Below are positions 30,991 through 45,397 of a DNA stretch of 64,000 nucleotides, piece after piece. This DNA comes from Aquimarina sp. Aq107 (lineage in GTDB: Bacteria; Bacteroidota; Bacteroidia; Flavobacteriales; Flavobacteriaceae), in NCBI RefSeq assembly GCF_943733665.1, contig NZ_OX030782.1, forward strand, positions 2,652,501 through 2,716,500, written 5' to 3'. The first letter of the stretch is position 1, and each line of letters starts with the position of its first letter. Made by a program: the position numbers and the translations under genes. The notes below the pieces were generated by a model that saw nothing but the letters and a program-made list of their open reading frames with translations, did not search any database and was not told where the DNA came from.

Positions 30991-31072
30991 GGATTTAGAA
31001 GAACGAACTAATATAATTGATCTCATTTAACGTAAATTTTGAGAAACTCTTAAATCTAAGCAAACCATATTA

Positions 31073-31474
31073 TTACACTTTCTTTAGCTCGATATATTTA
31101 GTATCACATTCACTAAACCTAACAAACTCATTCATTGCATTACCATAATTTAGTATAACAATGGTGTCGTTAATAAATTCAGCCGTTATAATTCTTTTTG
31201 GATATTCTCCGTATAATTCTTTAAACTGAAAAAGAATTGACTTATCGTGATACTCAATTTCCAACTCACCTGTATGCTGAAGATTTTGAGTTTTAATTTC
31301 ATAAACTAAATTGGAAATATTTATAGTCAAAAGACAATCATCTTTCTTATACTGATATTTACCATCAAAAAAACCGGGCTTCTTCTGTTCAATAATCGTA
31401 TTTTGTACAACACTTTTTTTTGATTTACAGTTAATGGTGAATAAAAGCAATATGAAAAAAAGGAAATATCTCAT
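31073..31474 (-). CDS. lipoprotein, putative immunity protein for the GH19 effector
   Basis: 133 residues of unknown family. The signal peptide ends in a lipobox (LLLFTINC, Cys16), placing the protein in the periplasm or on a membrane. The mature part looks all-beta (KDDCLLTINISNLVYEIKT, HTGELEIEYHDKSILFQF, RIITAEFINDTIVILNY), like many small beta-sandwich or barrel immunity proteins. It starts 8 nt after the stop of the muramidase effector gene. Effectors that attack peptidoglycan require a periplasmic immunity protein, so this is its likely partner; the link is by position only. Confidence 0.7.
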   Translation of the reverse strand: MRYFLFFILLLFTINCKSKKSVVQNTIIEQKKPGFFDGKYQYKKDDCLLTINISNLVYEIKTQNLQHTGELEIEYHDKSILFQFKELYGEYPKRIITAEFINDTIVILNYGNAMNEFVRFSECDTKYIELKKV

Positions 31475-31482
31475 ATCATTTT

Positions 31483-33315
31483 TTAATTTTTTAAGACTCT
31501 TAACCTTTCTTCTACAAAACTTCGAATTTCATATTTATCATATCCATACCAATTTCTTGGCGGGATTGGTTTACCTGCAGCGTCATTTAAAGCAATAAAA
31601 CGCTCATACCCTTCAATAGCCTTTTGCCTATTCTTCGTGCACCCTTTTTTGGAGGTTGCTGGGTCGTGCCATACTCCCCAACCAAAAGATCCTTTTTGTC
31701 TATTATATACTTTACTTTCTGAAAATATATATTCTGTGGACTCAGAATTAGAATTATTACAACTTTCATATAATATTTCAAATCCTTTCTCGACAGATTG
31801 TAATCTCTCATTATAACCATTAAAACCTCCATTAACGCTATACGTTATAAAAATAAAATCATTTTCATCCGCATCATCATTTAATTCTGCACTTTGGGCC
31901 CAAAACCACCCTGCCGACTTAGATGCGTGAGGGTTCCTTTCTAACTTTTCCTTATTTTGTTGTGAAGAGGTGAAATCTTCTCCAATAAAATTACCATAGG
32001 CTTCATAATTACTCCTAAATGTCAATTGAATCAATCCTCTTCCAGGAAAACCTCCGTATGCGCTATTTGAAACACCAGTTTCCCTTGTATAATAAAAACT
32101 TCCAGATTCTTTTATCACTTGTGCTAAAAAATGTATTCTTCTCAAACAAGTATTTATATCGTTGTCAATGAATGCCTGATTTATACCACTTAAATGAGTT
32201 TCTACATTCCTTTCAGTTGCGTGAATTGCAATACTCATTATTTGTTCTTTGGTCATTTCTTGAGAGCAACAATTATTCTTCAATTGAAAATATTCATCTC
32301 TCATTTTCAAAAACTCATCTTCATAATCCTGTTTATCTCCACTTACTTTTACTTTTAACCATAAAAAATCTATAATCGGAGGTAATTCTGGTTTTTGATT
32401 AGTGGGTAAGGGATAATCCTCAGGATTAGTAGATACCTCTGATCCAATTTGTGGCACATCTGATCCAAAAGTTAATGGAACGGATGGAGTTATTTGTTGC
32501 ATTTCTTCTACAGAAGGAGGAGGAAGATTAATGGGTTCTTTAGGTTTAAACTTTTCTTTCCATTCTTCAAAAACCGTATCAGGATCATCTACTTTGGGAC
32601 GAAACTTAATCTTTACTACAGCTTCTCCTTGATCGTTAAATGTAGCTTTTAGTTCGGTTTTGTTTGTATTCTCATTTGGTTCTTCTGCTTCTATAGTATC
32701 ATACTGAATAACTGTAAGTGGAATTTCATCCTCCATTAATAAAAATGGGCTCCTTTCAAAAATTTCTACAATGGCTTCTTTATCTTTTAAGGCAAATCCT
32801 TTAACTAGGATATAAGAATCCTCACCTAATATTCCATTATCTTTTTTTTCATAAGAAACTCTTTCTTCTTTCTTAAAAATTTCAAATTCTACAACATTAT
32901 TAGGTTCCCTATATATTCTATACTCAAGATTTGTACGTATTGCTTCAACATTAGTATGATAGCCTTCTGCTAATAAAGAATCCCTCTCAATTACATATAA
33001 AATTTCTTCGGCTACGGTATCTATACTTTTAGTTCTTAGGTTAGGATCTATTTCTCCTTCATCCATTATTCCATTTTCATCAACTAAATTAATAGGATTT
33101 CTTATAGGATATGAAGAGTTCCCACTAGAAACACTAACCTCTTCAACTTTCTTTTTCGCAAAGTAAGCATCAATTAAACCTTCTTCAGATTCATTGGTAG
33201 CAAAAGTTGTTTGATTTGCATAATCTGCCCAATTGCGATTAATCTCCTCAATTCTTCTAGAACGAGCCTCTATCAATTGTTGTGTTGCATTAATTCCTTC
33301 TTTATGTCCACTCAT
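31483..33315 (-). CDS. T6SS effector: shared N-module plus GH19-type muramidase domain
   Basis: 610 residues, no signal peptide. Layout: MSGH N-terminal module (1-60, with NESEEGLIDAYFAKK), linker, central beta domain (about 155-260, GFALKDKEAIVEIFE), a DxLWLxVKV segment (about 316-347), then a C-terminal GH19 chitinase/lysozyme-like domain (about 355-610) with FLAQVIKESGSFYYTRETG (candidate catalytic Glu403 and Glu412) and GRGLIQLTFRSNYEAYG. GH19-type domains cleave chitin or the glycan strand of peptidoglycan; in this setting the latter is likely. N-terminal, central and DxLWL parts match those of the effector at 33881. It follows that effector's immunity gene and precedes its own at 31073. 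Confidence 0.85.
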   Translation of the reverse strand: MSGHKEGINATQQLIEARSRRIEEINRNWADYANQTTFATNESEEGLIDAYFAKKKVEEVSVSSGNSSYPIRNPINLVDENGIMDEGEIDPNLRTKSIDTVAEEILYVIERDSLLAEGYHTNVEAIRTNLEYRIYREPNNVVEFEIFKKEERVSYEKKDNGILGEDSYILVKGFALKDKEAIVEIFERSPFLLMEDEIPLTVIQYDTIEAEEPNENTNKTELKATFNDQGEAVVKIKFRPKVDDPDTVFEEWKEKFKPKEPINLPPPSVEEMQQITPSVPLTFGSDVPQIGSEVSTNPEDYPLPTNQKPELPPIIDFLWLKVKVSGDKQDYEDEFLKMRDEYFQLKNNCCSQEMTKEQIMSIAIHATERNVETHLSGINQAFIDNDINTCLRRIHFLAQVIKESGSFYYTRETGVSNSAYGGFPGRGLIQLTFRSNYEAYGNFIGEDFTSSQQNKEKLERNPHASKSAGWFWAQSAELNDDADENDFIFITYSVNGGFNGYNERLQSVEKGFEILYESCNNSNSESTEYIFSESKVYNRQKGSFGWGVWHDPATSKKGCTKNRQKAIEGYERFIALNDAAGKPIPPRNWYGYDKYEIRSFVEERLRVLKN

Positions 33316-33381
33316 TCTAATATTCTTTTTATTACAAATAGATGTAATAATTCATAAATTTTAGACGCCATTTATTTCTAA

Positions 33382-33909
33382 TCATCCTATACAATTTACA
33401 GATTTCAATTCTAGACGATTTTCATTAACTTTAAATCTGTAAAGAGTCGTTGATTCTATTTCTTGGTCATTTTCCTTAACAGGAACTAAAAGAAGATTGT
33501 TTTCCATTCTCACCGGATCATAACTTCTTAGCACTTCCATTAAATCCTCTGTAAATATTTTTTTATTTAGTATTTTGTTCTTTAATAAATAAATATCTCC
33601 TCTTTCATACAAATGCGCTAATTCAAGTTTATGAAAAATACAATCTCCGAAAATCGTATCGGATAAATAACGATTATTCAAAGATTCATTATCGATGTTA
33701 ACATAATCTTTCTGTAGAATAGTTAAAAGTCTTTTAATAGTAACCGAGTCCGAATCTGCCTTTTTCAAAGAACTAATTTTGGTATTAGTTTTTTCATTAT
33801 CTACAAAAAATTTAGTACCATTTTTAGTGCTACCACAAGAAGAGACAAACAAGCAAAGGAAGAACACACTTAAAAAAGATTTACGTACGGGAACCTGCTT
33901 CTGCCGCAT
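33382..33909 (-). CDS. lipoprotein, putative immunity protein for the amidase effector
   Basis: 175 residues of unknown family. The start is ATG at 33909, which puts a signal peptide with lipobox (FFLCLFVSSCGS) at the N terminus; the longer frame to 33978 would place it internally. The first 29 nt overlap the end of the upstream effector gene, so both are translated together. The mature part is mixed alpha/beta (NNRYLSDTIFGDCIFHKLEL, VRMENNLLLVPVKENDQ). Position, overlap and periplasmic location suggest immunity against the TIGR02594-type hydrolase; the structure and partner are not shown. Confidence 0.72.
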   Translation of the reverse strand: MRQKQVPVRKSFLSVFFLCLFVSSCGSTKNGTKFFVDNEKTNTKISSLKKADSDSVTIKRLLTILQKDYVNIDNESLNNRYLSDTIFGDCIFHKLELAHLYERGDIYLLKNKILNKKIFTEDLMEVLRSYDPVRMENNLLLVPVKENDQEIESTTLYRFKVNENRLELKSVNCIG

Positions 33910-35518
33910 CAGCTTCACTTTGATATTGGTAAAACACTTCATTATTTTCATCATATATATATTCTTTAGGTAATACATAGCCTAATAGTTTAAAATTACC
34001 TTTTACATAGTTAGAGCCTGATTTTTCGAAAATATATTCTTCAACTTGAACTCGATGAGTTTGATTCCCTCCTAAAAGTTTGAATATCAAACGGTCGCCT
34101 GAGTTAACATAATCAATAACAAAAGCTGCATGTCCCTCGTGTGTAGGTCTAGTTAATCTTTGCATAATTAGAACGCTTCCATACGGAGGTTTCTTATCTG
34201 GTAATATTCTAACTCCTCCTTCATATCTGGATGGATTAAACCAATTAATAGCCATTGCAGGGTTATGGGTATGTCCATTCAAAGGAATAGTTGAAAAATT
34301 TGTCCCCTTTAGCCTATTAGTCTCAATGAATACCCAATTAGTAAAACTAGAACACCAAGCTTGGTTAATAGGATCTAAGGCTTGTCCTGCTCCATTTAAG
34401 AAAAACTCTGCTACCCTTTCAAAACCTCCACTAGTTCTATCTCTTTCATAAACACCTAATTCTGCCCAAGCAATTTCCATCCAAGGTGCTATTTCAGTTT
34501 GTAGCTGAAAATATTCATTGCTAAGCTTTAAAAACTCTTCTTCATATAAATTACTATTTCCTTGTACTTTTACCAATAACCATAATGGGTCCGTTATAGA
34601 TGAAGGAGGGTTTGGAGTATAATTTAAAACATTTGCACCATCTACATTTTCTGCAGTATATGTTCCGTTAAGGCTTTGCATAGCAATACTGTTTCTTTCA
34701 TTTTCTGTTTCAGGGTCTAACATAAAATCCGAAGTATCACCTGATACCAAATCGTTTTGATCAGAAGAATTTGGTTCTATTGTAAAGTTTTCCAGCGGGT
34801 CTTCTGGGATAAACTTCTCTTTCCAAGCATTGAACACTGTGTCTTCTGCATCTTCTCCTTCAGGTTTCTCAGGTCTTAATTGAATTTTAACTACCGCTTC
34901 TCCATTTTCATTAAACTTGGCTTTCAATTCTGTCCTATTTTCATTTACAGGTTTTTCTGCATCTAGAGGATCATATTGAATCACTGTAAGAGGTGTTTCA
35001 TTTTCCATCAGTAAATAAGGCCTTTTTTCAAAAATTTCAATAATCGCTTCTTTATCTTTTAATGCAAATCCTTTTACTACGACATAAACATCACCTCCTA
35101 GCACTCCACTATTTACCTTTTCATAAAAAACCTCGGTTATAGTTGGTATTTGATTTGGTATTGTTAATTGAGCACCAACACTGATATTATAATTTGGCCT
35201 TGGGCCTACATCATCTGGATTAGCCTCGGCTATATCTTCTATACTTACTCCAGAATAATTTTCTGCTATCTTGGTAAGATTATCTCCACTAACTACAGTA
35301 TAAATTTCAGGTTCTGTTTCTAAAGAATCATTTACTGGCACCTCTCTTTCTTTTCTCTCCGCAAAGTATGAATCTAATAATCCCTCTTCCGCTTCATTCG
35401 TGGTAAATGTAATTTGGTTAGTTTCTTCATCCCAACGTACTTGATCCCATATTCGCTTTAAGCGAGCTTCGCCTTTTTGTTGTGCTGCATTTATTACTTC
35501 TTGATTATGTCCACTCAT
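33881..35518 (-). CDS. T6SS effector: shared N-module, LysM and TIGR02594-type peptidoglycan hydrolase
   Basis: 545 residues, no signal peptide. Order: MSGH module (1-60, NAAQQKGEARLKRIWDQVRW and NEAEEGLLDSYFAERK), LysM (72-120, YTVVSGDNLTKIAENYSGVS), central beta domain (about 130-240), DPLWLLVKVQG (310-320), and a catalytic domain (about 343-520). The last resembles the TIGR02594 NlpC/P60-CHAP-like family: PWMEIAWAELGVYE, NQAWCSSFTNWVF with candidate nucleophile Cys389, EGHAAFVID with His463, and LLGGNQTHRVQV. LysM would hold the toxin on peptidoglycan while it cuts peptide cross-links. The stop overlaps the following lipoprotein gene by 29 nt. Confidence 0.87.
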   Translation of the reverse strand: MSGHNQEVINAAQQKGEARLKRIWDQVRWDEETNQITFTTNEAEEGLLDSYFAERKEREVPVNDSLETEPEIYTVVSGDNLTKIAENYSGVSIEDIAEANPDDVGPRPNYNISVGAQLTIPNQIPTITEVFYEKVNSGVLGGDVYVVVKGFALKDKEAIIEIFEKRPYLLMENETPLTVIQYDPLDAEKPVNENRTELKAKFNENGEAVVKIQLRPEKPEGEDAEDTVFNAWKEKFIPEDPLENFTIEPNSSDQNDLVSGDTSDFMLDPETENERNSIAMQSLNGTYTAENVDGANVLNYTPNPPSSITDPLWLLVKVQGNSNLYEEEFLKLSNEYFQLQTEIAPWMEIAWAELGVYERDRTSGGFERVAEFFLNGAGQALDPINQAWCSSFTNWVFIETNRLKGTNFSTIPLNGHTHNPAMAINWFNPSRYEGGVRILPDKKPPYGSVLIMQRLTRPTHEGHAAFVIDYVNSGDRLIFKLLGGNQTHRVQVEEYIFEKSGSNYVKGNFKLLGYVLPKEYIYDENNEVFYQYQSEADAAEAGSRT

Positions 35519-35635
35519 AATTTCTTATGATTTAATATTATATATTTCTTTATCTACAGAATCGCAAAAGATCACCTCTTATTTCTAGAAAAACATCAAG
35601 TATTTTGTTATTTACCTTCTAAGAATGTTTACCAA

Positions 35636-36868
35636 TTAGGAAACAGGTACAAAAAATTCTTTTTCAAAAGTTATTTTTGTTAAGAAGGGTTTATAACCTC
35701 TCACATGTTGCAAGAAAAACCATCCTCTAAATCCAGCTCCTAGCGAGTAAAATTTTTGCATATCGGGTAGATCTAGTCCAAAATGATCCCAATAAATCAC
35801 CTCATATTTGATATCATAACCGTTTTCTTTTTTTGTATATTCAATAACACTTACTTCGTAACTCCAAACATCATTCACGGCAATTGTCAACCCTCTAAAA
35901 AGATTGTTATCTTCTCCTCTAGCAAATGAAGGAGAAGCACCCGGTCTTCTTTGCCACCTTATAGATGTATCTTCTGCTGCTGCAATATTTCCTCCCCTAT
36001 TCTGTATTCGTTGTGTAATGTCATTTTCTAAAGCCGCACAAAATCTTTCTGTTGCAGAACTCTCGATAGCCGCCTGATTAAGTTCATCATTCTCATAAAT
36101 CCCTCCTTCATTATTTTGAAACTTATCAATCATAGATGCTATATTTTCTCTTAATGCACCTGAAGAAAGTTGAAAAGCCATAATTCTAAAATCATCAAAG
36201 AGCATAAAATCAAAATTCAACCTAGTAAGATTAAATAAAATAGGTCTTATTTCTGTTATTTCTTCAGTTTTATATATTGCTTTATCTGTGATCCTATCTC
36301 CATTTGCGAACTTTATATGTTCTGTATCATTAAAACCATCCTGCTCATATTCTTGCTTGTAAGCTTGTATCTCCTCTTCTGAATAAATCAACGTACTAGG
36401 TTCTCCAGAACCGTAGGCCATATCATTGGCAATTGCACTTCCATCTTCATTTAATCCTGGTATTCTATAACGTTCTACATAAAAAGGCACTTCTATATCT
36501 TGTAGCATAGATTCTGGTAAATCCGTAGGGACGTCTATCTGAGCGGTATCTTTAATTACGATATCTACTCCTCCTGTTGCACATCCAATTGTAGAGTCTT
36601 CTAACAACATAAACTCTCCGTCGATTTCTAAATTACTAGCAACTCCTTGCCATTGTTTAGGAGCAATTACACCGGCACAGGGCGGTGGACTTTTTCTCCA
36701 TTTTTTGCATACTCCACCAAAAACAAGATTAGATTTGTTTCGATCTCCATTAGTCGCACATGGTGTATCTTGTAATTGCACTTCTGTATGTGATACAACA
36801 AGTACTCCATCACTAGAACAGAGCGGACAGCTTAAGGTAGCTCCATTTTTCACAAATTGTCCAGACAT
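35636..36868 (-). CDS. PAAR-like (DUF4280) T6SS spike protein with C-terminal toxin-like domain
   Basis: 410 residues. The first 118 residues are a DUF4280 PAAR-like spike tip with Cys pattern CPLC, PCATN, GVCKKW, PPPCAG and GCATGG, almost identical to the next gene upstream. A linker follows (about 120-210), then a C-terminal domain (about 215-410) with FMLFDDFRIMAFQLSSG, IRWQRRPGASPSF and a tail GFRGWFFLQHVRGYKPFLTK that recalls DUF3289. That assignment is from memory and tentative. No small immunity gene follows; the next gene, 117 nt on, is another effector. Confidence 0.8.
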   Translation of the reverse strand: MSGQFVKNGATLSCPLCSSDGVLVVSHTEVQLQDTPCATNGDRNKSNLVFGGVCKKWRKSPPPCAGVIAPKQWQGVASNLEIDGEFMLLEDSTIGCATGGVDIVIKDTAQIDVPTDLPESMLQDIEVPFYVERYRIPGLNEDGSAIANDMAYGSGEPSTLIYSEEEIQAYKQEYEQDGFNDTEHIKFANGDRITDKAIYKTEEITEIRPILFNLTRLNFDFMLFDDFRIMAFQLSSGALRENIASMIDKFQNNEGGIYENDELNQAAIESSATERFCAALENDITQRIQNRGGNIAAAEDTSIRWQRRPGASPSFARGEDNNLFRGLTIAVNDVWSYEVSVIEYTKKENGYDIKYEVIYWDHFGLDLPDMQKFYSLGAGFRGWFFLQHVRGYKPFLTKITFEKEFFVPVS

Positions 36869-36905
36869 GATTCATAGGTTTTAAGCGTATTTTTTTTACA
36901 TAATC

Positions 36906-38618
36906 TTATTCTATATTGTTATTGTCGTACACCAAACTTTTATCTCCTCTCATAATATCCCATTGCCATTTAAAAAATGAATGCATATTGCCTTTAAATC
37001 TATTATCTAATGGCTCTTTGTTAAGATCTGGTTCGAATTGAGTTGGATAATCCATATAATTATCTGTAAATCCTCTATAAAAAAGGAAAGGAGTATTAAA
37101 TTCTTCTTCAAAAGAATGCGGTAATGAAAGAGAATGCCCTATTTCGTGGGGAACATTATGAATTTCTGACAACCCTCCTCCAAAAATAATACACGCATTT
37201 CCCCATTCCACATTGGATATATCCGTTAGATCAGCACTAGCTAGCCCTCTCCATTGTATAGGAGGAAGGCCTTCTCTTTCAAGAATTCCCGTAACATTTG
37301 TATAAAACAGGAATGTTTTATTATGACCAAATTCTTCTATACCAGTTACTGGTTTATAATGTCCATATTTATCATATAACTTAACCAAATTATTTAAAAA
37401 TCCATTTACTGAATTAAATTGAGGTCCTATATCCAAATTTTCAGTAACAAAATCATCTTTAAACTTTTTTACATCTGGATCGGTATCAGGTAAACTATCT
37501 ATATCAAAATCATCATCAAAAACTTCTGTCTGTATCAAGGGTTGAACCGTGGACTCATATTTAATAGTTGTCTTATAATTAGGATTTAAAATTGCACTCA
37601 TTCCATCTATAATAACATTAACTGCTATAACATTAGCAGTGGCGATAGCATTATTATTATAGACCATCAGTTTACCTACTTCTTCTTTTTCTCCATCCAA
37701 CTCTGCATAGATTTTTATTTCTTCGTGAGCTTCCAAAGGATTTCCTTCACATTTTATAGTAATTACTTTTTCAGTTACATAAAGCTCTTTTGTAGTAGTA
37801 CCTAAATCCTTAGTTTGCTTTTCTGCCAAAAGTTCACTTAAACTTATTTGCGATGGTATAACGATAAGTGAATCATTTGGAGATTCAAAAATGATTTTAG
37901 TAGCATCGCCAACCAACGGCTCTATTGCTTCTATTTCGATATTTAATAGAGCTTCATTTACTCCATTAAATGTTGTATCTGGAAAAATAGATAACCAAGC
38001 TGGATAATAATCTTCTCCATAAGGAGTAATTGGATTTACCACATCCTTTGTCTTGTACTCTTTTTTTAAATCTTCAGGATTTTTACAAACAGCTAATTGT
38101 TGATTTAAAGGTCCAGAAAAAGGAGATCTGGCATTATCATACCCTATAGTTTCTATTGGATAGATATGCTCATCCCGTAACCAATCAAACCCATACTCGC
38201 CTTTATAATCATCTGGTCTTCTTACATTCACCAAAAACTTTTTTAGTCTGGCATTCTCCGTATCTGGTAAATCTGTAGGGACATCCATCTGAGCGGTATC
38301 ATCAATACCAATATCTACGCCTCCGGTACTGCAAGTAATCGTGGAGTCCTCTAATAACATAAATTCTCCGTCAATTTCTACATCTGTTGCTACTCCCTTC
38401 CATTGCGTCGGAGCAATTACACTTGCACAAGGCGGTGGACTTTTTCGCCATTTTTTACAAACTCCTCCAAAAACAAGATTAGACTTACTCTTATCGCCAT
38501 TGGTAGCACAAGGAGTATCTTGTAATTGTACCTGAGTATGCGATACGACCAATGTACCACTACTAGAACATAATGGACATTTTAAAGTAGCGCCATTTTT
38601 TACAAATTGTCCAGCCAT
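36906..38618 (-). CDS. PAAR-like (DUF4280) T6SS spike protein fused to a metzincin protease
   Basis: 570 residues. The DUF4280 PAAR-like tip (1-118) is followed by a middle region (about 120-400, beta-rich, unknown) and a metzincin-type zinc protease (about 400-555). HEIGHSLSLPH spans 491-501 (three His ligands, Glu492) and YMDYP at 521-525 is the expected Met-turn. Fusion to a spike tip strongly suggests delivery as a 'specialised' effector. No obvious immunity gene follows (next stop to start distance is 37 nt, leading into the second PAAR-like gene), which would fit a protease acting on eukaryotic or other non-self targets. It is separated from the adaptor-like gene by only 2 nt. Confidence 0.88.
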   Translation of the reverse strand: MAGQFVKNGATLKCPLCSSSGTLVVSHTQVQLQDTPCATNGDKSKSNLVFGGVCKKWRKSPPPCASVIAPTQWKGVATDVEIDGEFMLLEDSTITCSTGGVDIGIDDTAQMDVPTDLPDTENARLKKFLVNVRRPDDYKGEYGFDWLRDEHIYPIETIGYDNARSPFSGPLNQQLAVCKNPEDLKKEYKTKDVVNPITPYGEDYYPAWLSIFPDTTFNGVNEALLNIEIEAIEPLVGDATKIIFESPNDSLIVIPSQISLSELLAEKQTKDLGTTTKELYVTEKVITIKCEGNPLEAHEEIKIYAELDGEKEEVGKLMVYNNNAIATANVIAVNVIIDGMSAILNPNYKTTIKYESTVQPLIQTEVFDDDFDIDSLPDTDPDVKKFKDDFVTENLDIGPQFNSVNGFLNNLVKLYDKYGHYKPVTGIEEFGHNKTFLFYTNVTGILEREGLPPIQWRGLASADLTDISNVEWGNACIIFGGGLSEIHNVPHEIGHSLSLPHSFEEEFNTPFLFYRGFTDNYMDYPTQFEPDLNKEPLDNRFKGNMHSFFKWQWDIMRGDKSLVYDNNNIE

Positions 38619-38620
38619 TA

Positions 38621-39415
38621 TTATAGTTGAATTATACTAACTGTATTGTGATATTCTTGTCTGCCATACCTTTCTATACTAGAAATTACAGCCCGCTGCA
38701 ACCAAGATTCAAGTATCCCTTTAAAATTATAAGTTCCGTTTACCGAAACATACTCTTTATTTTTGGGATAATGCGACTGTAACTGTAACTGAACATCTTC
38801 TGTTTCCTTTGCTGATTGCAATAAAACATCTTCTTCTGTAGCAACCTTTCCGTATTTTGTGGATAAATACTGTGATGTAATACTACACGAATCAGAACTA
38901 TATTTTTGATACATCGATTTTATTAATCCTCCAAAATTATGATACAGAGAAATATCTTTTATAATCTCTTCTTCTGAATTTAATATCGCTTCTGTTTTTA
39001 ATATGAAGCGTTGTATTTGATTTCCTTTATATTTATTTTCAAAATACATTTTTATTTTACTCCATTTTTCCTGTAATTCATCCATATTATCTATGGATAA
39101 GATTTGCCCTTTATAAGATACTTGTAAATTAAGTTTGTTATAAACCGAAGCTGTTCTTTTTATAATATCTTGCATTGCAAAGGACCCGTCAGAGAATTGA
39201 AAATTATCATTTTCAATCTCAACATTTACAAAACGAATGTATGGTTGGTCTTCATTGTATTCCATAGAAAGAGAAACTTCTTTCTTCCGAGAACAACGTA
39301 TTTCTCCAGAATAATTAATAAAATTTGTACTTTCTATCAAATATTTGTTCATTCCTTGTTTCGGAATATTTAATTGTATCTCTTGTGTTCTAAATCTATA
39401 TTTACTTGGGATCAT
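38621..39415 (-). CDS. unknown protein between vgrG and PAAR genes (adaptor candidate)
   Basis: 264 residues, soluble, no signal peptide or membrane segment, and I recognise no family. It is rich in beta strands at the N terminus (YRFRTQEIQLNIPKQ, YIRFVNVEIENDNFQFSDG) and helical in the middle (LQEKWSKIKMYFENKYKGN), with a C-terminal strand pair (YVSVNGTYNFKGILESWLQR). Genes directly between vgrG and PAAR-effector genes often encode chaperone/adaptors that load the effector onto the spike (compare DUF4123, DUF1795 and DUF2169 in Proteobacteria), and its position, 24 nt from vgrG and 2 nt from the PAAR-metzincin gene, fits this. Inference only. Confidence 0.65.
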   Translation of the reverse strand: MIPSKYRFRTQEIQLNIPKQGMNKYLIESTNFINYSGEIRCSRKKEVSLSMEYNEDQPYIRFVNVEIENDNFQFSDGSFAMQDIIKRTASVYNKLNLQVSYKGQILSIDNMDELQEKWSKIKMYFENKYKGNQIQRFILKTEAILNSEEEIIKDISLYHNFGGLIKSMYQKYSSDSCSITSQYLSTKYGKVATEEDVLLQSAKETEDVQLQLQSHYPKNKEYVSVNGTYNFKGILESWLQRAVISSIERYGRQEYHNTVSIIQL

Positions 39416-39439
39416 GACTTATGTGTTAAAAAAATACGT

Positions 39440-41230
39440 TTATCCTTTACTAATTTTTACATTTCCTCCTCCTTGAAAAGAAGCTGTTGCTCCACAAGCA
39501 ATCTTCATATTTCTTTTACTCTGAATTTCTGCATTACCACTATTTTGAATTAAATCACCTCCGATAGTATTTTTCATTTTACTTTCTACTGTATTTGTAT
39601 GATTAGAAGAAGAGGTGTCAAAATTTCTCTCTGTATAAATTGTTGTATCTCTACCAATATTAAATGAAGCATCCTCTTTAACATTCATTTCAAAATTCTT
39701 TGCATTCAATGTCATGGTTTCTAATGCAGTGATGGTAATGTTATTATTGGCTGTATCGATATGAATTAGATTTTCATTCTTATCCTTTATAGTAATAAAC
39801 TCCCCTTTATCAGTATCATTTAATTCAATGGTATGGCCACTTCGAGTTCTAATAGCTTTTACATTGTTTTTATCTGTTTTCCATCCTGATGGATTCTCAG
39901 ATCCATTATACAATGCGCCCATGACAAAAGGCCTCTCTGCATTTCCACCCTCAAAACCTATTAATACTTCTTCTCCTACCTCTGGAATAAAATGAAATCC
40001 TTTATCTCCTCCAGAATGCGGAGTCATTACACGAAGCCAAGGCGTGTAAACTCCCAGCGGTTTTTGCCAATTTAATTGTACTTTTATTCTACCTATTCCT
40101 TCTGGATCATCATTAGCGGTAACTGTAGCGACCTCAGTCTCACTTTTAGGTATCTTAAAGATATTTGTATTAGGATATACATCTTGATCTACTGCAATTC
40201 CTTCAAAAAGATTTATATACTTCCCATTTTCGGTTGCTGTATGCGTTATTTTGATAATTCTATAAACGCCTTGATTGTTATTTTTTTCTTTTATTTTTAC
40301 TATTCTTCCTAAACTAACACCAGGATTATCACTTTTACCGGTAATAATTACCTGTTTAATTTCTTCTGCCTTTTTTTGTTCCTTTACTAAATTACCAAGT
40401 CTTTGTTTAGTTTGAGTATCATTATAAGTATTTAAAAATACTTGTGTTTTATGAGGGAACATTTCTTTGCTTTTATTAGAAGCAAATCCATTATGCCCAT
40501 TAATAGAACTAGTAATTTCCGAAGTGCCAACTTCATGCTTTTCATTACTCAAATAATCATTAGTAAAAAAAGAATAACTATTCGACCTAGGTTCTAACCG
40601 CCTAGAAAACTCTTGTAGATCAAAACCATAGGTTAACACAACCTCTTCTGAGTTCTGTGGCTCTCCAAATATTAAATTTTCGCCATCATAATAAAACCAC
40701 TCTCCATATTGGGCAGATAACCTACTCGCAAACTGAAAACTACTTTCTCCTTGCTGTACACAATAGTGTAATGGACTATTAAATCTCGTAGTTATCGAGG
40801 TATTTAATTTTGAACGATCGTATTTTTGAAAAACACCTGTTAGAATAGAACTTAAGTTTTCGTCACTAAATGAGGCATAATGAGGCCCATCATCTGTAAG
40901 TATAGAATTACTTTTAGCATTGATTAAAATAGAATCTCCCATGGATTGATGAAACCCATTGGTGACTTTTACCTCAGTAACAACGCCATTAAACTTTAAT
41001 TCCTTATAAACATTAACGGAATCTAATGATGAAATAGAAAGAATAATAGTTTGCCCTAAAAAATCGTTGCTTTCATCTTCATAAAGATCAGAAACCTTTT
41101 CTAAAACATCTTTACGACATAAAATTTCTAGCGTATGATGATCATCAATTTCTTGCTTAAGTGTAAGTTTCTTATATGCTTTTATAGAAACTCCCCCAAT
41201 AAAAATTTGGATATTAGATTGAAGTGCCAT
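39440..41230 (-). CDS. vgrG: VgrG spike protein of type VI secretion
   Basis: 596 residues. The N-terminal two thirds are gp27-like (about 1-350, including DFLGQTIILSISSLD, SFQFASRLSAQYGEWFYYDG). A gp5-like OB fold follows (about 370-460, DPEGIGRIKVQLNWQKPLG, PHSGGDKGFHFIPEVGEEV, GGNAERPFVMGALYNG), and the tail (about 480-596, repeated TIxxTxE-like strands, ending FQGGGNVKISKG) would form the beta-prism needle. This is the puncturing trimer on the T6SS inner tube. It is the first gene of the payload operon and has a consensus promoter. There are no tssB/C, tssF, tssG, tssK, clpV or membrane genes here, so the apparatus must be encoded elsewhere. Confidence 0.95.
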   Translation of the reverse strand: MALQSNIQIFIGGVSIKAYKKLTLKQEIDDHHTLEILCRKDVLEKVSDLYEDESNDFLGQTIILSISSLDSVNVYKELKFNGVVTEVKVTNGFHQSMGDSILINAKSNSILTDDGPHYASFSDENLSSILTGVFQKYDRSKLNTSITTRFNSPLHYCVQQGESSFQFASRLSAQYGEWFYYDGENLIFGEPQNSEEVVLTYGFDLQEFSRRLEPRSNSYSFFTNDYLSNEKHEVGTSEITSSINGHNGFASNKSKEMFPHKTQVFLNTYNDTQTKQRLGNLVKEQKKAEEIKQVIITGKSDNPGVSLGRIVKIKEKNNNQGVYRIIKITHTATENGKYINLFEGIAVDQDVYPNTNIFKIPKSETEVATVTANDDPEGIGRIKVQLNWQKPLGVYTPWLRVMTPHSGGDKGFHFIPEVGEEVLIGFEGGNAERPFVMGALYNGSENPSGWKTDKNNVKAIRTRSGHTIELNDTDKGEFITIKDKNENLIHIDTANNNITITALETMTLNAKNFEMNVKEDASFNIGRDTTIYTERNFDTSSSNHTNTVESKMKNTIGGDLIQNSGNAEIQSKRNMKIACGATASFQGGGNVKISKG

Positions 41231-41424: not shown

Positions 41425-41785
41425 ATGATCATCAACGGTTCGTTATTATAAAAACTAAGGATTATCCGTAAATATTACGAATTGCATTAAAAACAAGTCT
41501 ATGCTAGAAATGGTTTCAAAAAAACTATAACTACAGATCATAATATTATGTAAGGGTATACCCTAATTTTTAAATTCTATGGTTGACTCCTAAAAATAAG
41601 AATATTGCCCAATGTAATTTAGCACCATACAATTAGAACCCATACACATCTTTTTTAGCAGATTGTAATTATAAAGCTATTAAGGGAAAACAAATTGGCG
41701 CCGAAAAAAGGGATCTAATGACAGAAGATATTCTACTGTTCTGTATAAAAATGAGTAGAATCAATTATTCTTAAAACTAAAACAA

Positions 41786-42535
41786 ATGATAAATTTTAGA
41801 AATTCATGGATGTGTACATCCATCGTAATTGGAGTATTTTTAATGATCTCCTGTGAAAAAACAGATGTATCAACAGAAACTCTTGAAATCCAAGAAAACG
41901 ACTTTACTAGTATAACTGGTAATGATGATCAAACTCTTAATCTAAATAACAAAGAAGTACAAGAGCCTCTTTTACATTTGAGCTTTGATAAAAACACGAA
42001 TGAACAAGAAATAGATTTTTTATGGAATAAAGCGGTCAAAGATTATATTCATCAAAACCCTATTACAAATAAAAATGCAAGTACCGAAGTATTCATTCTA
42101 ATACGTACTCTTACTGGAGAACAAGAAAATCATGATACAACTGCGAATGCGAGAGCAAGGATAGAATTTACAACCGATCAAGGGCAACGCATTAGTAGAT
42201 ATTTATTGTTAAACAATGGAACTAATTATGACGGTTCGGATAATGGTCCAGATAGACAAATAGATCAATATGATTTTTATCTTTTTAGAATTGGATTTCC
42301 TAATCTTCCAATATGTTGGTTCGAATTAAACACAGCTCATCTTGAGTCACAAGGAATGGATAATTGGTTTGTAAGAGAGTTTAATCTATATGTTCAACCA
42401 GATTATCAGACGATATCTGCTACTGGAAGATCTGTTATATTATCAGATCCCAATGAATGGTTAGAAGGCGAAACGGAAACAGATTGGGATCAATACCATA
42501 CTGGTATTATTAATAGTGGAACGTTAGATTTCTAA
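41786..42535 (+). CDS. lipoprotein with a PLAT-like beta domain, unknown function
   Basis: 249 residues. Signal with lipobox (VFLMISCEK, Cys23). A low-complexity linker (about 25-75) leads into a domain (about 100-215) with TEVFILIRTLTG, ARARIEFTTDQGQRISRYLL, DQYDFYLFRIG, CWFELNTAH and NWFVREFNLYVQ, a strand order that recalls PLAT/LH2 lipid- or protein-binding domains; this is a weak fold guess. It is divergent from vgrG (555 nt) and followed by a strong terminator and a TPR kinase gene. It may belong to the same regulon but no shared motif sits before it. Confidence 0.7.
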   Translation: MINFRNSWMCTSIVIGVFLMISCEKTDVSTETLEIQENDFTSITGNDDQTLNLNNKEVQEPLLHLSFDKNTNEQEIDFLWNKAVKDYIHQNPITNKNASTEVFILIRTLTGEQENHDTTANARARIEFTTDQGQRISRYLLLNNGTNYDGSDNGPDRQIDQYDFYLFRIGFPNLPICWFELNTAHLESQGMDNWFVREFNLYVQPDYQTISATGRSVILSDPNEWLEGETETDWDQYHTGIINSGTLDF

Positions 42536-42563
42536 TATTAAAGGTTTTATCTGTGAATTCTTT

Positions 42564-42592
42564 AACAGCCTGTTATACTATAACAGGCTGTT
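42564..42592 (+). terminator. intrinsic terminator after the lipoprotein gene
   Basis: AACAGCCTGTTATA, C, TATAACAGGCTGTT (42564-42592), then CTTTCT. A 12-14 bp stem 28 nt after the stop. Confidence 0.85.
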
Positions 42593-42710
42593 CTTTCTGA
42601 TAAATCAAAAAGTCACCTTTACAATTATTTATTAATGACTTCAAAGATTCGTACCTTTAAAAAGCTTAAACTCATTAAAATCAATTCTTCATAATACATC
42701 TCTTAACCTT

Positions 42711-44768
42711 ATGAAGCTTAAAGACACATATTTATTTTGTTTTCTTTCTTGCGTTTTTTTTATATCAGTTGCCCAACAACACGTTAACGATATAGATACC
42801 TTAACGGTAAAAAATCATTTAGACTATAAGCTAAATAGGGCATTGAATATACCAGATTATAAAAAAGCGCTTAACATAATAGATAGTATGGAAGTTTATG
42901 GTTTACAAAACAATGACCTCTTATTTACTGCTTACGCCTATAGCGCGAAAACATCCATCTATAGATTTAATCAAGATATCACTAATGCAAAAATATATGT
43001 CCGAAAAAGCATTAAAATTTATGAAAAATACAACTATCACAATGGTCTTGTTTCTCTAAACTCACACCTTGCCAATATATTAAGAGCAGAAGGAAAACTA
43101 GATTCTTGTTTTTATGTATTAAATTCAATCTCTAAACGATATATTTCTGATAGCATTTCTAAAAGAAATCTACGCTATTATTATAATGAAAAAGATATCT
43201 CCCATTCCATGGCAGGGAGAATAGATTCTTCACTTCACTATACTTTAAAAAAAATAGCTCTTATTGAAAAAGATAATCACTACGATTTAGGAATTTCTTA
43301 TACCATAATGGCAAAAAACTTTTACTTAGTGAAAGATTTTTCTAAAGCTCTAGTATATATTAATAAATCATTAGATCATTTTTCTGAAGAATCAAAAAAA
43401 CCTGAGACCGCAATAAGTCGAGCATATATTCTAAAAAGTAAAATTTTACTTGATCTTAATAGATATGAAAAAGTAGAATCTACTCTTGATATAGTTACGG
43501 ATCTGATCAAAAAGAAAAATTCGATTGATTATGGTTTAAAAATACAGACGTTACGATCGAAACTATATTGGAAAACAAAACAGTTTCACAAACTTCCTTC
43601 CTTTGATATAGACAGTAACGATTATAAGAAGGTATCAAGTCATACTTTTTTTAATTTCTATTTAACCAATCTCGAACAGAACATTTCTAAAAAAAAATGG
43701 ACAGAGTCAAAAATACTAATTACTAGATTAAACGCTTTATTACCCTCGATAAGTGATCTAAGTTATAAACAATCCTTTTATAAACTTTCATCATTATATT
43801 GGGAAGGTATCAAAGATTTCGAAAAAAGTTATTCTACACAAAATCAATACCTTAAAATAAAAGAGACAATCAACACTAGACAACAAACATATATCGCTTA
43901 TGATCTTGATCAAAAATATCAACTAGCTAAAAAAAATGAAGAAATTGCACGAAAAGAGTTTACAATCAAAGAGCAGGAAAATCAACTATTAAAAAAAGAA
44001 AAAGACCAAATTTATTTAACACTATCGATAATATCCGCAATACTAGCCTTTATTACATTATTATTTATATATAAACAGCGACAAAAAATAAAAAACAATG
44101 AGATTCTAGCCTTACAAAAACAACAAGAAATAGTAAAACTAGAAGCCTTAATCAAAGGAGAAGAAAAAGAACGCAACCGCCTAGGGCAAGATTTACATGA
44201 CGGTATCAATGGTGATTTATCTGTAATTAAATATAAAATCACCTCTATAGAATCATCACAATTAATGGAAAAAGAAAAGCAATTTCATAGTGAAGCTATA
44301 GAACTTTTAGATAATACTGTAGAACAGATACGTTTGATTTCGCATAATCTAGCTCCTTCTATATTACAAGATTTTAACCTCACACAAGCGATACAACAAT
44401 TATGCGATAAGATAAATTCTACATATACAGTAAACATAAATTTTCAATATTTTGGACATCATTTAGTATTAGAGCAAGAAAAAGAAATTTCTATATACAG
44501 AATAATTCAAGAGTTAGTAAACAATATAATAAAGCACGCTAACGCTACCGAAGCTATTGTTCAAATCAATAATCATAATAACAGATTATATATTACTGTA
44601 GAAGATAATGGTAAAGGTTTTGACCTTGATACTAAAAGTTATGGAATAGGGTTGCAAAATATAAAATCTAGAGTTAGTTTTTTAAATGCTGACTTAGAAA
44701 TTTCTTCTTGTGACCAAGGAACTTCTATTCATATTAATTTAGATTTAGATAAAACAAAAAAGGCATGA
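42711..44768 (+). CDS. TPR sensor histidine kinase (HisKA_3 type), second pair
   Basis: 685 residues, the same layout as the kinase at 26990 but clearly divergent. Signal peptide (about 1-23), TPR-like helical repeats (about 35-390), one transmembrane helix (about 438-458, LTLSIISAILAFITLLFIY), coiled coil, HisKA_3 with His496 (ERNRLGQDLHDGINGDLS) and HATPase (QELVNNIIKHANA, DNGKGFD, YGIGLQNIKSR). It overlaps the regulator gene by four bases (ATGA). Located upstream of the amylase and downstream of the divergent T6SS region. Confidence 0.92.
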   Translation: MKLKDTYLFCFLSCVFFISVAQQHVNDIDTLTVKNHLDYKLNRALNIPDYKKALNIIDSMEVYGLQNNDLLFTAYAYSAKTSIYRFNQDITNAKIYVRKSIKIYEKYNYHNGLVSLNSHLANILRAEGKLDSCFYVLNSISKRYISDSISKRNLRYYYNEKDISHSMAGRIDSSLHYTLKKIALIEKDNHYDLGISYTIMAKNFYLVKDFSKALVYINKSLDHFSEESKKPETAISRAYILKSKILLDLNRYEKVESTLDIVTDLIKKKNSIDYGLKIQTLRSKLYWKTKQFHKLPSFDIDSNDYKKVSSHTFFNFYLTNLEQNISKKKWTESKILITRLNALLPSISDLSYKQSFYKLSSLYWEGIKDFEKSYSTQNQYLKIKETINTRQQTYIAYDLDQKYQLAKKNEEIARKEFTIKEQENQLLKKEKDQIYLTLSIISAILAFITLLFIYKQRQKIKNNEILALQKQQEIVKLEALIKGEEKERNRLGQDLHDGINGDLSVIKYKITSIESSQLMEKEKQFHSEAIELLDNTVEQIRLISHNLAPSILQDFNLTQAIQQLCDKINSTYTVNINFQYFGHHLVLEQEKEISIYRIIQELVNNIIKHANATEAIVQINNHNNRLYITVEDNGKGFDLDTKSYGIGLQNIKSRVSFLNADLEISSCDQGTSIHINLDLDKTKKA

Positions 44769-45397
44769 TAACTGTTTCGATTTTAGATGATCATATTATG
44801 GTTTTGAGAGGACTAGAAACAATGTTAGAAGATTCTAAGCTAGTCGAAATAATAGCAACTTATAACACTGGAAAAAAATTATTAGATGGACTTGTCATAA
44901 CGACTCCTAATGTGTTGCTGTTAGATATAAACCTTCCTGACAGTAATGGTATAGAACTATGTAAGTTAATTGCTAAAACATATCCTAGTATAGCAATTAT
45001 AGGACTTTCCAATTATAACGAAACGGGTTTTGTAAAAAATATGATTCGTAATGGAGCCAAAGGGTATTTATTAAAAAACTCTTCTAAAAAAGAACTAATC
45101 GAAGCTATTAAATCTACTTATCGCGGAGAAACATATTTACCTAAGAGTCTACAGAATAAACTCCTGAACGAAAGCATTGGAATTCGGTCTTCATCTTTTA
45201 TTCCTAAATTAACGAGAAGAGAAAAAGAGGTTTTAGAATTAATTTCAAAAGAGTATACATCCGAAGAAATAGCAGGAAAACTATTTGTTACCATAAAAAC
45301 TGTTGAAGCACATCGTAGTAATTTAATTCAGAAATTAGGAGTTAGGAATAGTGCTGGTCTAATCAGAGTTGCCTTTGAAAAAGGACTATTAGCTTAA
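44765..45397 (+). CDS. NarL/LuxR-type response regulator, second pair
   Basis: 210 residues. Receiver domain with Asp54 (VLLLDINLPDSNG) and LLKNSSKK; LuxR/GerE HTH at about 145-210 (TRREKEVLELISKEYTSEEI, LFVTIKTVEAHRSNLIQKL). Translationally coupled to the kinase by the ATGA overlap. It is a paralogue of the regulator at 28890; one of them is the best local candidate to read the 15-base motif in front of vgrG and the LRR gene. Confidence 0.92.
   Translation: MITVSILDDHIMVLRGLETMLEDSKLVEIIATYNTGKKLLDGLVITTPNVLLLDINLPDSNGIELCKLIAKTYPSIAIIGLSNYNETGFVKNMIRNGAKGYLLKNSSKKELIEAIKSTYRGETYLPKSLQNKLLNESIGIRSSSFIPKLTRREKEVLELISKEYTSEEIAGKLFVTIKTVEAHRSNLIQKLGVRNSAGLIRVAFEKGLLA

Follow-up and report, generated by a model that had tools for sequence, protein, structure and literature searches.

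The window analysed here, a 64,000-nucleotide stretch from Aquimarina sp. Aq107 (G000:C1:2652501-2716500, within a single-contig 5.5-Mb genome), contains a row of eight tightly packed minus-strand open reading frames (ORFs) at 31073..41230. It very probably forms an orphan payload cassette serving the subtype iii type VI secretion system (T6SSiii) of the genome, with adaptor-loaded spike tips and with cargo wall hydrolases whose toxin tails are swappable. Behind this reading stand the gene content, matches to known families and folds, co-occurrence with the sheath protein TssC, tails and partner genes that differ after conserved modules, and scars in relatives. Genomes and loci used for comparison carry G and L numbers, respectively.

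Secretion machinery of the genome

The genome holds a T6SSiii core. A genome search placed the Bacteroidota-type TssC at C1:1496005 (PF17541, E 1.1e-242); the other TssC model, PF05943, had no match in the genome. Two TssD proteins, TssN, TssF, TssO and a gp25-like protein, all above cut-off, lie near TssC together with a ClpB-type ATPase, and TssK scored marginally under its cut-off (21.5 of 23.4 bits). None of the ORFs scanned near TssC was named as TssP, TssQ or TssR, for which no genome-wide search was made and Pfam model coverage is unchecked. According to the excerpt of PMC10781749, tssO, tssQ and tssR are missing or could not be identified in 27, 23 and 31% of systems, respectively. A preliminary description of this DNA had made its interpretation depend on a T6SS core locus in the genome, and such a locus is present (TssC, TssD twice, TssN, TssF, TssO, gp25-like). 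Its naming of the cassette as an orphan holds as well, with TssC lying about 1.2 Mb away.

Across 66 genomes, both the adaptor and the carriers (cargo proteins with the common N-terminal module described below) track TssC. Carriers were counted in 21 of the 66, a figure that excludes G002, G003, G004, G041 and G060, where the hits end by model position 173, in the LysM region and just after it; including these short LysM-region hits, the count is 26, of which 25 have TssC.

The genome also carries two loci resembling extracellular contractile injection systems (eCIS), each with sheath, tube and VgrG-like hub genes (10 ORFs of both loci were scanned), and PAAR proteins are described in the excerpt of PMC8651086 as capping eCIS as well as T6SS. 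That the cassette serves one of these systems and not the T6SS is nevertheless highly unlikely. Five VgrGs are encoded in the genome including that of the window, which is 42-57% identical to the other four, whereas its identity to the two eCIS hubs is 24-28% over parts. Of these four, two lie no farther than about 30 kb from TssC, and two belong to other islands. An eCIS was rejected as the delivery machine; the window hub is not closest to the eCIS hubs. The tracking of TssC by adaptor and carriers also speaks for the T6SS, in a count that did not follow eCIS genes. The eCIS-like loci are L021 (G000:C1:37000-50000) and L022 (G000:C1:1242000-1257000), one with CIS_spike_tip and one with Baseplate_J.

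Adaptor, tips and cargo hydrolases

From 5′ to 3′, the cassette encodes a VgrG, a 264-aa adaptor, tips 1 and 2, cargo 1, a lipoprotein, cargo 2 and a small secreted protein. All eight co-directional, closely spaced genes of the preliminary description were recovered at this span, and its VgrG call stands. Judged from the signal peptide, the 198-aa ORF of lipoprotein 1 more likely starts at Met 24 (33909); taking this start, the intergenic gaps from vgrG to the last gene measure 24, 2, 37, 117, -29, 66 and 8 bases. The features, all on the minus strand, are as follows.

39440..41230, minus: VgrG spike, 596 aa; Pfam Phage_GPD and Phage_base_V above cut-off
38621..39415, minus: BtapC-family adaptor (BtapC, Bacteroides T6SS Adapter Protein C), 264 aa
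36906..38618, minus: tip 1, DUF4280 spike tip with metzincin-like domain; Pfam DUF4280 above cut-off, and motif
35636..36868, minus: tip 2, DUF4280 with DUF3289 (colicin M-like); Pfam DUF3289 and match to 9jg8_B
34493..35518, minus: cargo 1 N-terminal carrier module, residues 1-342; common to cargo 2 and 18 further proteins
35384..35419, minus: cargo 1 N-terminal motif NQITFTTNEAEE, residues 34-45; pattern search and in-frame check
33881..34492, minus: cargo 1 toxin tail, TIGR02594/CHAP-like (C389, H463); NCBIfam below cut-off, motif check
33382..33909, minus: putative immunity lipoprotein 1, ORF open from 33978; partner in G025
32269..33315, minus: cargo 2 N-terminal carrier module, residues 1-349; similarity to cargo 1 and to a relative's module
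33181..33216, minus: cargo 2 N-terminal motif NQTTFATNESEE, residues 34-45; pattern search and in-frame check
31483..32268, minus: cargo 2 toxin tail, GH19-like endolysin domain; PHROG endolysin, GH19 below cut-off
31073..31474, minus: putative immunity protein 2, 133 aa, signal peptide or weak lipobox; position 3′ of cargo 2, comparison with L026

A VgrG-bound cargo complex of Bacteroides, BtpeA-BtaeB-BtapC, is available as PDB 9jg8 and the N-terminal domain of BtaeB (BtaeB-NTD) of B. fragilis as 9jdh, according to the titles of these entries; no paper on the complex was found in the open-access literature. The window adaptor has no Pfam match. A profile of 22 sequences linked it to 9jg8_A (E 1.1e-16), a smaller one of 8 sequences found no convincing solved relative and did not find 9jg8_A, and its predicted fold is that of the BtapC adaptors. 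By this homology the 264-aa protein is a BtapC-family adaptor, so that the earlier candidate adaptor can now be named. In each of the four DUF4280 islands found in the genome, a gene for a BtapC-type adaptor directly precedes the one or two DUF4280 genes. One of the other islands, L018 (G000:C1:1518001-1526153), sits by the T6SS core with a Tle1-like phospholipase, a DUF2931 protein, an adaptor and a stand-alone DUF4280 tip; L019 (G000:C1:2620140-2628383), a second orphan island, encodes a VgrG, an adaptor and a 1639-aa DUF4280-RHS-AHH nuclease-like protein.

As claimed earlier, both tips carry DUF4280 (above cut-off in each) and differ in their C-terminal domains, their first 120 residues being 83% identical. 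Tip 1 has a metzincin-like motif (HEIGHSLSLPH at 491-501, NYMDY at 520-524), which fits the metzincin pattern, HExxHxxxxxH plus a Met-turn. HExGHxxSLxH and N-x-MDY are kept in all seven aligned tip 1 relatives, with H491, E492, H495, H501, N520 and M522-Y524 invariant. No Pfam peptidase matched at E up to 1, and the metzincin likeness is one of motif. Tip 2 reaches 83.7 bits against Pfam DUF3289 (cut-off 25) and matches 9jg8_B with E 5.9e-52; 9jg9 and 9jdi, titled 'DUF3289 family protein', are among the related PDB entries. The excerpt of PMC11148199 presents DUF3289 as a colicin M homologue, harmful on periplasmic expression, whose detailed mechanism awaits confirmation, and that of PMC12135965 describes it in Aeromonas jandaei as a T6SS effector with antibacterial activity. 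The tips, too, are polymorphic, because in other loci they are fused to CHAP (L108) or M23 (L109, L111) domains.

In the window no small gene stands directly beside either tip; 117 bases after tip 2 comes cargo 1 in place of an adjacent cognate DUF3289 immunity gene, which may lie elsewhere. The DUF3289 tips of L023, L024, L026, L028 and L103 likewise have no small gene directly adjacent. Behind the metzincin tips of L027 and L029 stand related lipoprotein genes of 149-151 aa. L111 (G005:C22:406000-425000) holds two tandem cassettes; the second has a VgrG and a DUF3289 tip with a 162-aa lipoprotein gene behind it, and no adaptor of its own.

About 345 residues at the N-terminus are common to cargos 1 and 2 (41% identical), a feature not mentioned in the preliminary description. 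This part, here called the carrier module, recurs in 18 other proteins, whose tails are of several kinds; 13 of the 18 relatives of cargo 1 outside this genome are from Aquimarina. Cargo 1 contains LysM above the Pfam cut-off, and its tail looks like a TIGR02594/CHAP hydrolase from its Cys and His motifs, although it scores below the curated cut-off (E 5.1e-10, 39.8 bits, NCBIfam cut-off 70.55). The tail of cargo 2 matches a PHROG endolysin family (E 8.2e-33) and falls short of Pfam GH19 (E 0.0015, 18.8 bits, cut-off 25.5). Of the earlier claim of two hydrolases each followed by a lipoprotein, the hydrolase-like tails, at subthreshold curated scores, and the small partner genes stood; the lipobox of the last gene (LFTINC) looks weak.

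Eight of nine carrier proteins match endolysin, amidase or tail-lysozyme families of PHROG, as would be expected if the hydrolases were ordinary phage-like endolysins or the whole row a prophage remnant. We consider this extremely improbable, since no carrier relative was confirmed in viral contigs (one scan), no phage structural family is found among the eight proteins besides the VgrG hub and the tips, and the gene order is kept in seven of seven related loci and tied to TssC. Defence-system models matched none of the eight proteins.

Apparent exchange of tails and partner genes

The preliminary description had proposed a synteny comparison of relatives for swapped tails and immunity genes, which was run and revealed differing tails and partners after conserved modules. 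Seven related loci preserve the order of VgrG, adaptor and one or more DUF4280 tips, after which come one or two carrier hydrolases, each paired with a small partner gene; a response-regulator/kinase pair lies downstream of the cassette in all seven. Over 348 residues, the window's cargo 2 has 94% identity to cargo B of L026; beyond that point the two are unrelated, and their partner genes do not match each other. On the DNA level, similarity in slot 2, the place of the second tail and its partner, ends at 32293 (about residue 340) and returns at 30990 in L026; in L023 and L024 it breaks at 32301 and returns at 30991. In slot 1, similarity to L023 and L024 ends at 34872 and returns at 33636, inside immunity gene 1. 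The cargo 1 tail of the window and the slot-1 tail of these relatives belong to one broad type, yet they have diverged (39% overall). Conversely, G025 has the same cargo 1 tail and a partner 72-79% identical to immunity lipoprotein 1. The partner gene changes with the toxin tail for both cargos; for pair 1 this is seen in G025 as well, for pair 2 solely in the contrast with relatives. Lipoprotein 1 and the 133-aa protein are putative immunity partners of the hydrolases, and toxin tail and immunity gene appear, from these comparisons, to be exchanged as a unit between relatives.

Scars accompany this pattern. In L105, L106 and L107, from the genomes of L024, L026 and L023, immunity protein 1 survives only from residue 92 onward, in more than one frame. 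These broken pieces, and the lack of a small gene directly beside the tips, could mean that the cassette is out of use, a decaying orphan island retained in some lineages. This is quite unlikely, as the eight genes in the window are all open and closely spaced, the tip 1 motif is conserved across seven loci and VgrG is 81-98% identical to that of six Aquimarina loci. A payload cassette in service remains the preferred reading. The earlier characterization as modular and growing is better put as exchange in slots, given another tail and partner in relatives and three immunity-gene remnants. At L104 (G036:C214), a row of toxin-tail pieces starts inside a carrier end, with small secreted partner genes between them, possibly a reservoir of displaced tails.

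Upstream of vgrG, a single match to a Bacteroidota promoter consensus has its -7 part 134 bases ahead of the gene's start, and it may be a chance match. A 3.9-kb piece (window 41473-45396) with a 249-aa lipoprotein-like gene, a histidine kinase and a response regulator lies between vgrG and a 1154-aa gene; its flanks are only about 25-60 bases apart in L023, L024, L026, L027, L028 and L029.

Possible loading motif, proposed mechanism and known systems

The carriers start with a conserved stretch ending in NQTTFATNEAEE or a near variant. In G029, G049 and G005, three large cargos with VasX_N (PF20249) are encoded next to adaptors of the same subfamily and have NMTTICTNEAEE, NQTTLVTNEAEE and NMTTFCVNENEE just before VasX_N. 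The consensus is N-x-x-T-[FLI]-x-[TV]-N-E-x-E-E. A degenerate DNA pattern gave 25 matches in 15 of the 66 genomes and 9 for the reversed control; it was devised after both classes were known, and the count is no independent test. Sixteen matches fall at residues 26-43 of cassette cargos (13 carriers, 3 VasX_N), eight at residue 166 or later of other ORFs (within 3-kb loci) and one outside an open frame. The point is the motif common to two unrelated protein classes, together with the lack of other N-terminal matches. Against its being a signal, the G015 carrier (TNDPEE) escapes the pattern, G008 has the adaptor and no pattern match, and distant carriers beside other adaptors are without the exact motif. 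Tentatively, and at somewhat under even chances, the motif may be a loading signal that one subfamily of BtapC-type adaptors recognises, by which unrelated cargos, carrier hydrolases and VasX_N-type proteins alike, would share one spike.

What we infer about the working of the cassette is the order of loading, a single tip and a single cargo per shot, the targets and immunity. At each firing, one VgrG and one BtapC-type adaptor would carry one of the two DUF4280 tip effectors, either the metzincin-like protease or the colicin M-like DUF3289 enzyme, whose expected target is lipid II. The same shot would carry one of the two cargo wall hydrolases, held by the common N-terminal module. Delivered into the periplasm of a neighbour, the payload would attack wall precursor, peptide and glycan; the two small secreted proteins would neutralise the two hydrolases, and recombination in two slots would exchange toxin tail and immunity gene as a unit.

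Several observations weigh against this reading. Among TssC-positive genomes, 8 of the 23 in the family-level set and 5 of the 35 from the genus are without a detected adaptor, and an adaptor occurs without TssC in two family-level genomes and one in the genus; moreover, related genomes share ancestry, so that p values overstate independence. Hydrolase profiles stay under curated cut-offs for both tails. The possible resemblance of the carrier to the BtaeB-NTD fold (9jdh) comes from a model of pLDDT 59, and a carrier profile run against PDB sequences returned no BtaeB, only a flagellum-associated protein (E 0.061). Two VasX_N-type cargos and two distant carriers also had no BtaeB match. Finally, tip 2 lacks a small gene directly beside it, yet a 162-aa lipoprotein gene takes this place in G005.

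We read the cassette as the Aquimarina version of the BtpeA-BtaeB-BtapC loading cassette of Bacteroides. Both have, beside VgrG, a BtapC-family adaptor, a DUF4280-DUF3289 tip and a cargo, with N-terminal cargo domains that may be alike in predicted fold. In contrast to the Bacteroides complex, a single adaptor goes with two alternative tips and two cargos here, tip 1 has a metzincin-like domain, tip 2 has 410 instead of 608 aa, and the tails are endolysin-like hydrolases that differ between relatives. As in the DUF3289/colicin M-like T6SS effectors of the excerpts of PMC11148199 and PMC12135965, DUF3289 scores well above the Pfam cut-off; here, however, it is fused to DUF4280 and lacks a directly adjacent small gene. 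In Vibrio cholerae, displacement of T6SS effector-immunity units in fixed places leaves old immunity genes behind (PMC5361080, in excerpt), as here, except that replacement occurs after a conserved carrier module and the leftover immunity gene is truncated. By description, not sequence, the cargos are also like the TANFOR polymorphic toxins of Bacteroidetes, proposed T9SS substrates in the excerpt of PMC7073777, in joining a conserved N-terminus to polymorphic tails, but they sit in VgrG-adaptor cassettes.

No published description of this cassette was found in the open-access literature (complex names, Aquimarina with T6SS, related topics), and the two tips and two cargos on one adaptor, the tail-plus-immunity exchange and the N-terminal motif go beyond what we found described there. 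MIX, FIX, RIX and WHIX are delivery markers of proteobacterial T6SS effectors. Likened by description and not by sequence, they resemble the carrier module in being a conserved part common to effectors with different toxic domains; here, however, that part occurs in Bacteroidota with a BtapC-type adaptor. To our knowledge, cargo choice by the T6SS of Bacteroidota is still poorly understood. The solved Bacteroides complex provides a template on which the Aquimarina cassette is a natural variation, and the common motif makes the question of recognition directly testable. Since the adaptor lies directly upstream of DUF4280 in all four islands, the BtapC-type family may serve as a handle for effector discovery. 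The differing tails and partners and the leftover immunity pieces suggest how arsenals are renewed; if the motif is indeed a loading signal, one adaptor with several tips and cargos would amount to a combinatorial arsenal, refreshed by tail-plus-immunity exchange.

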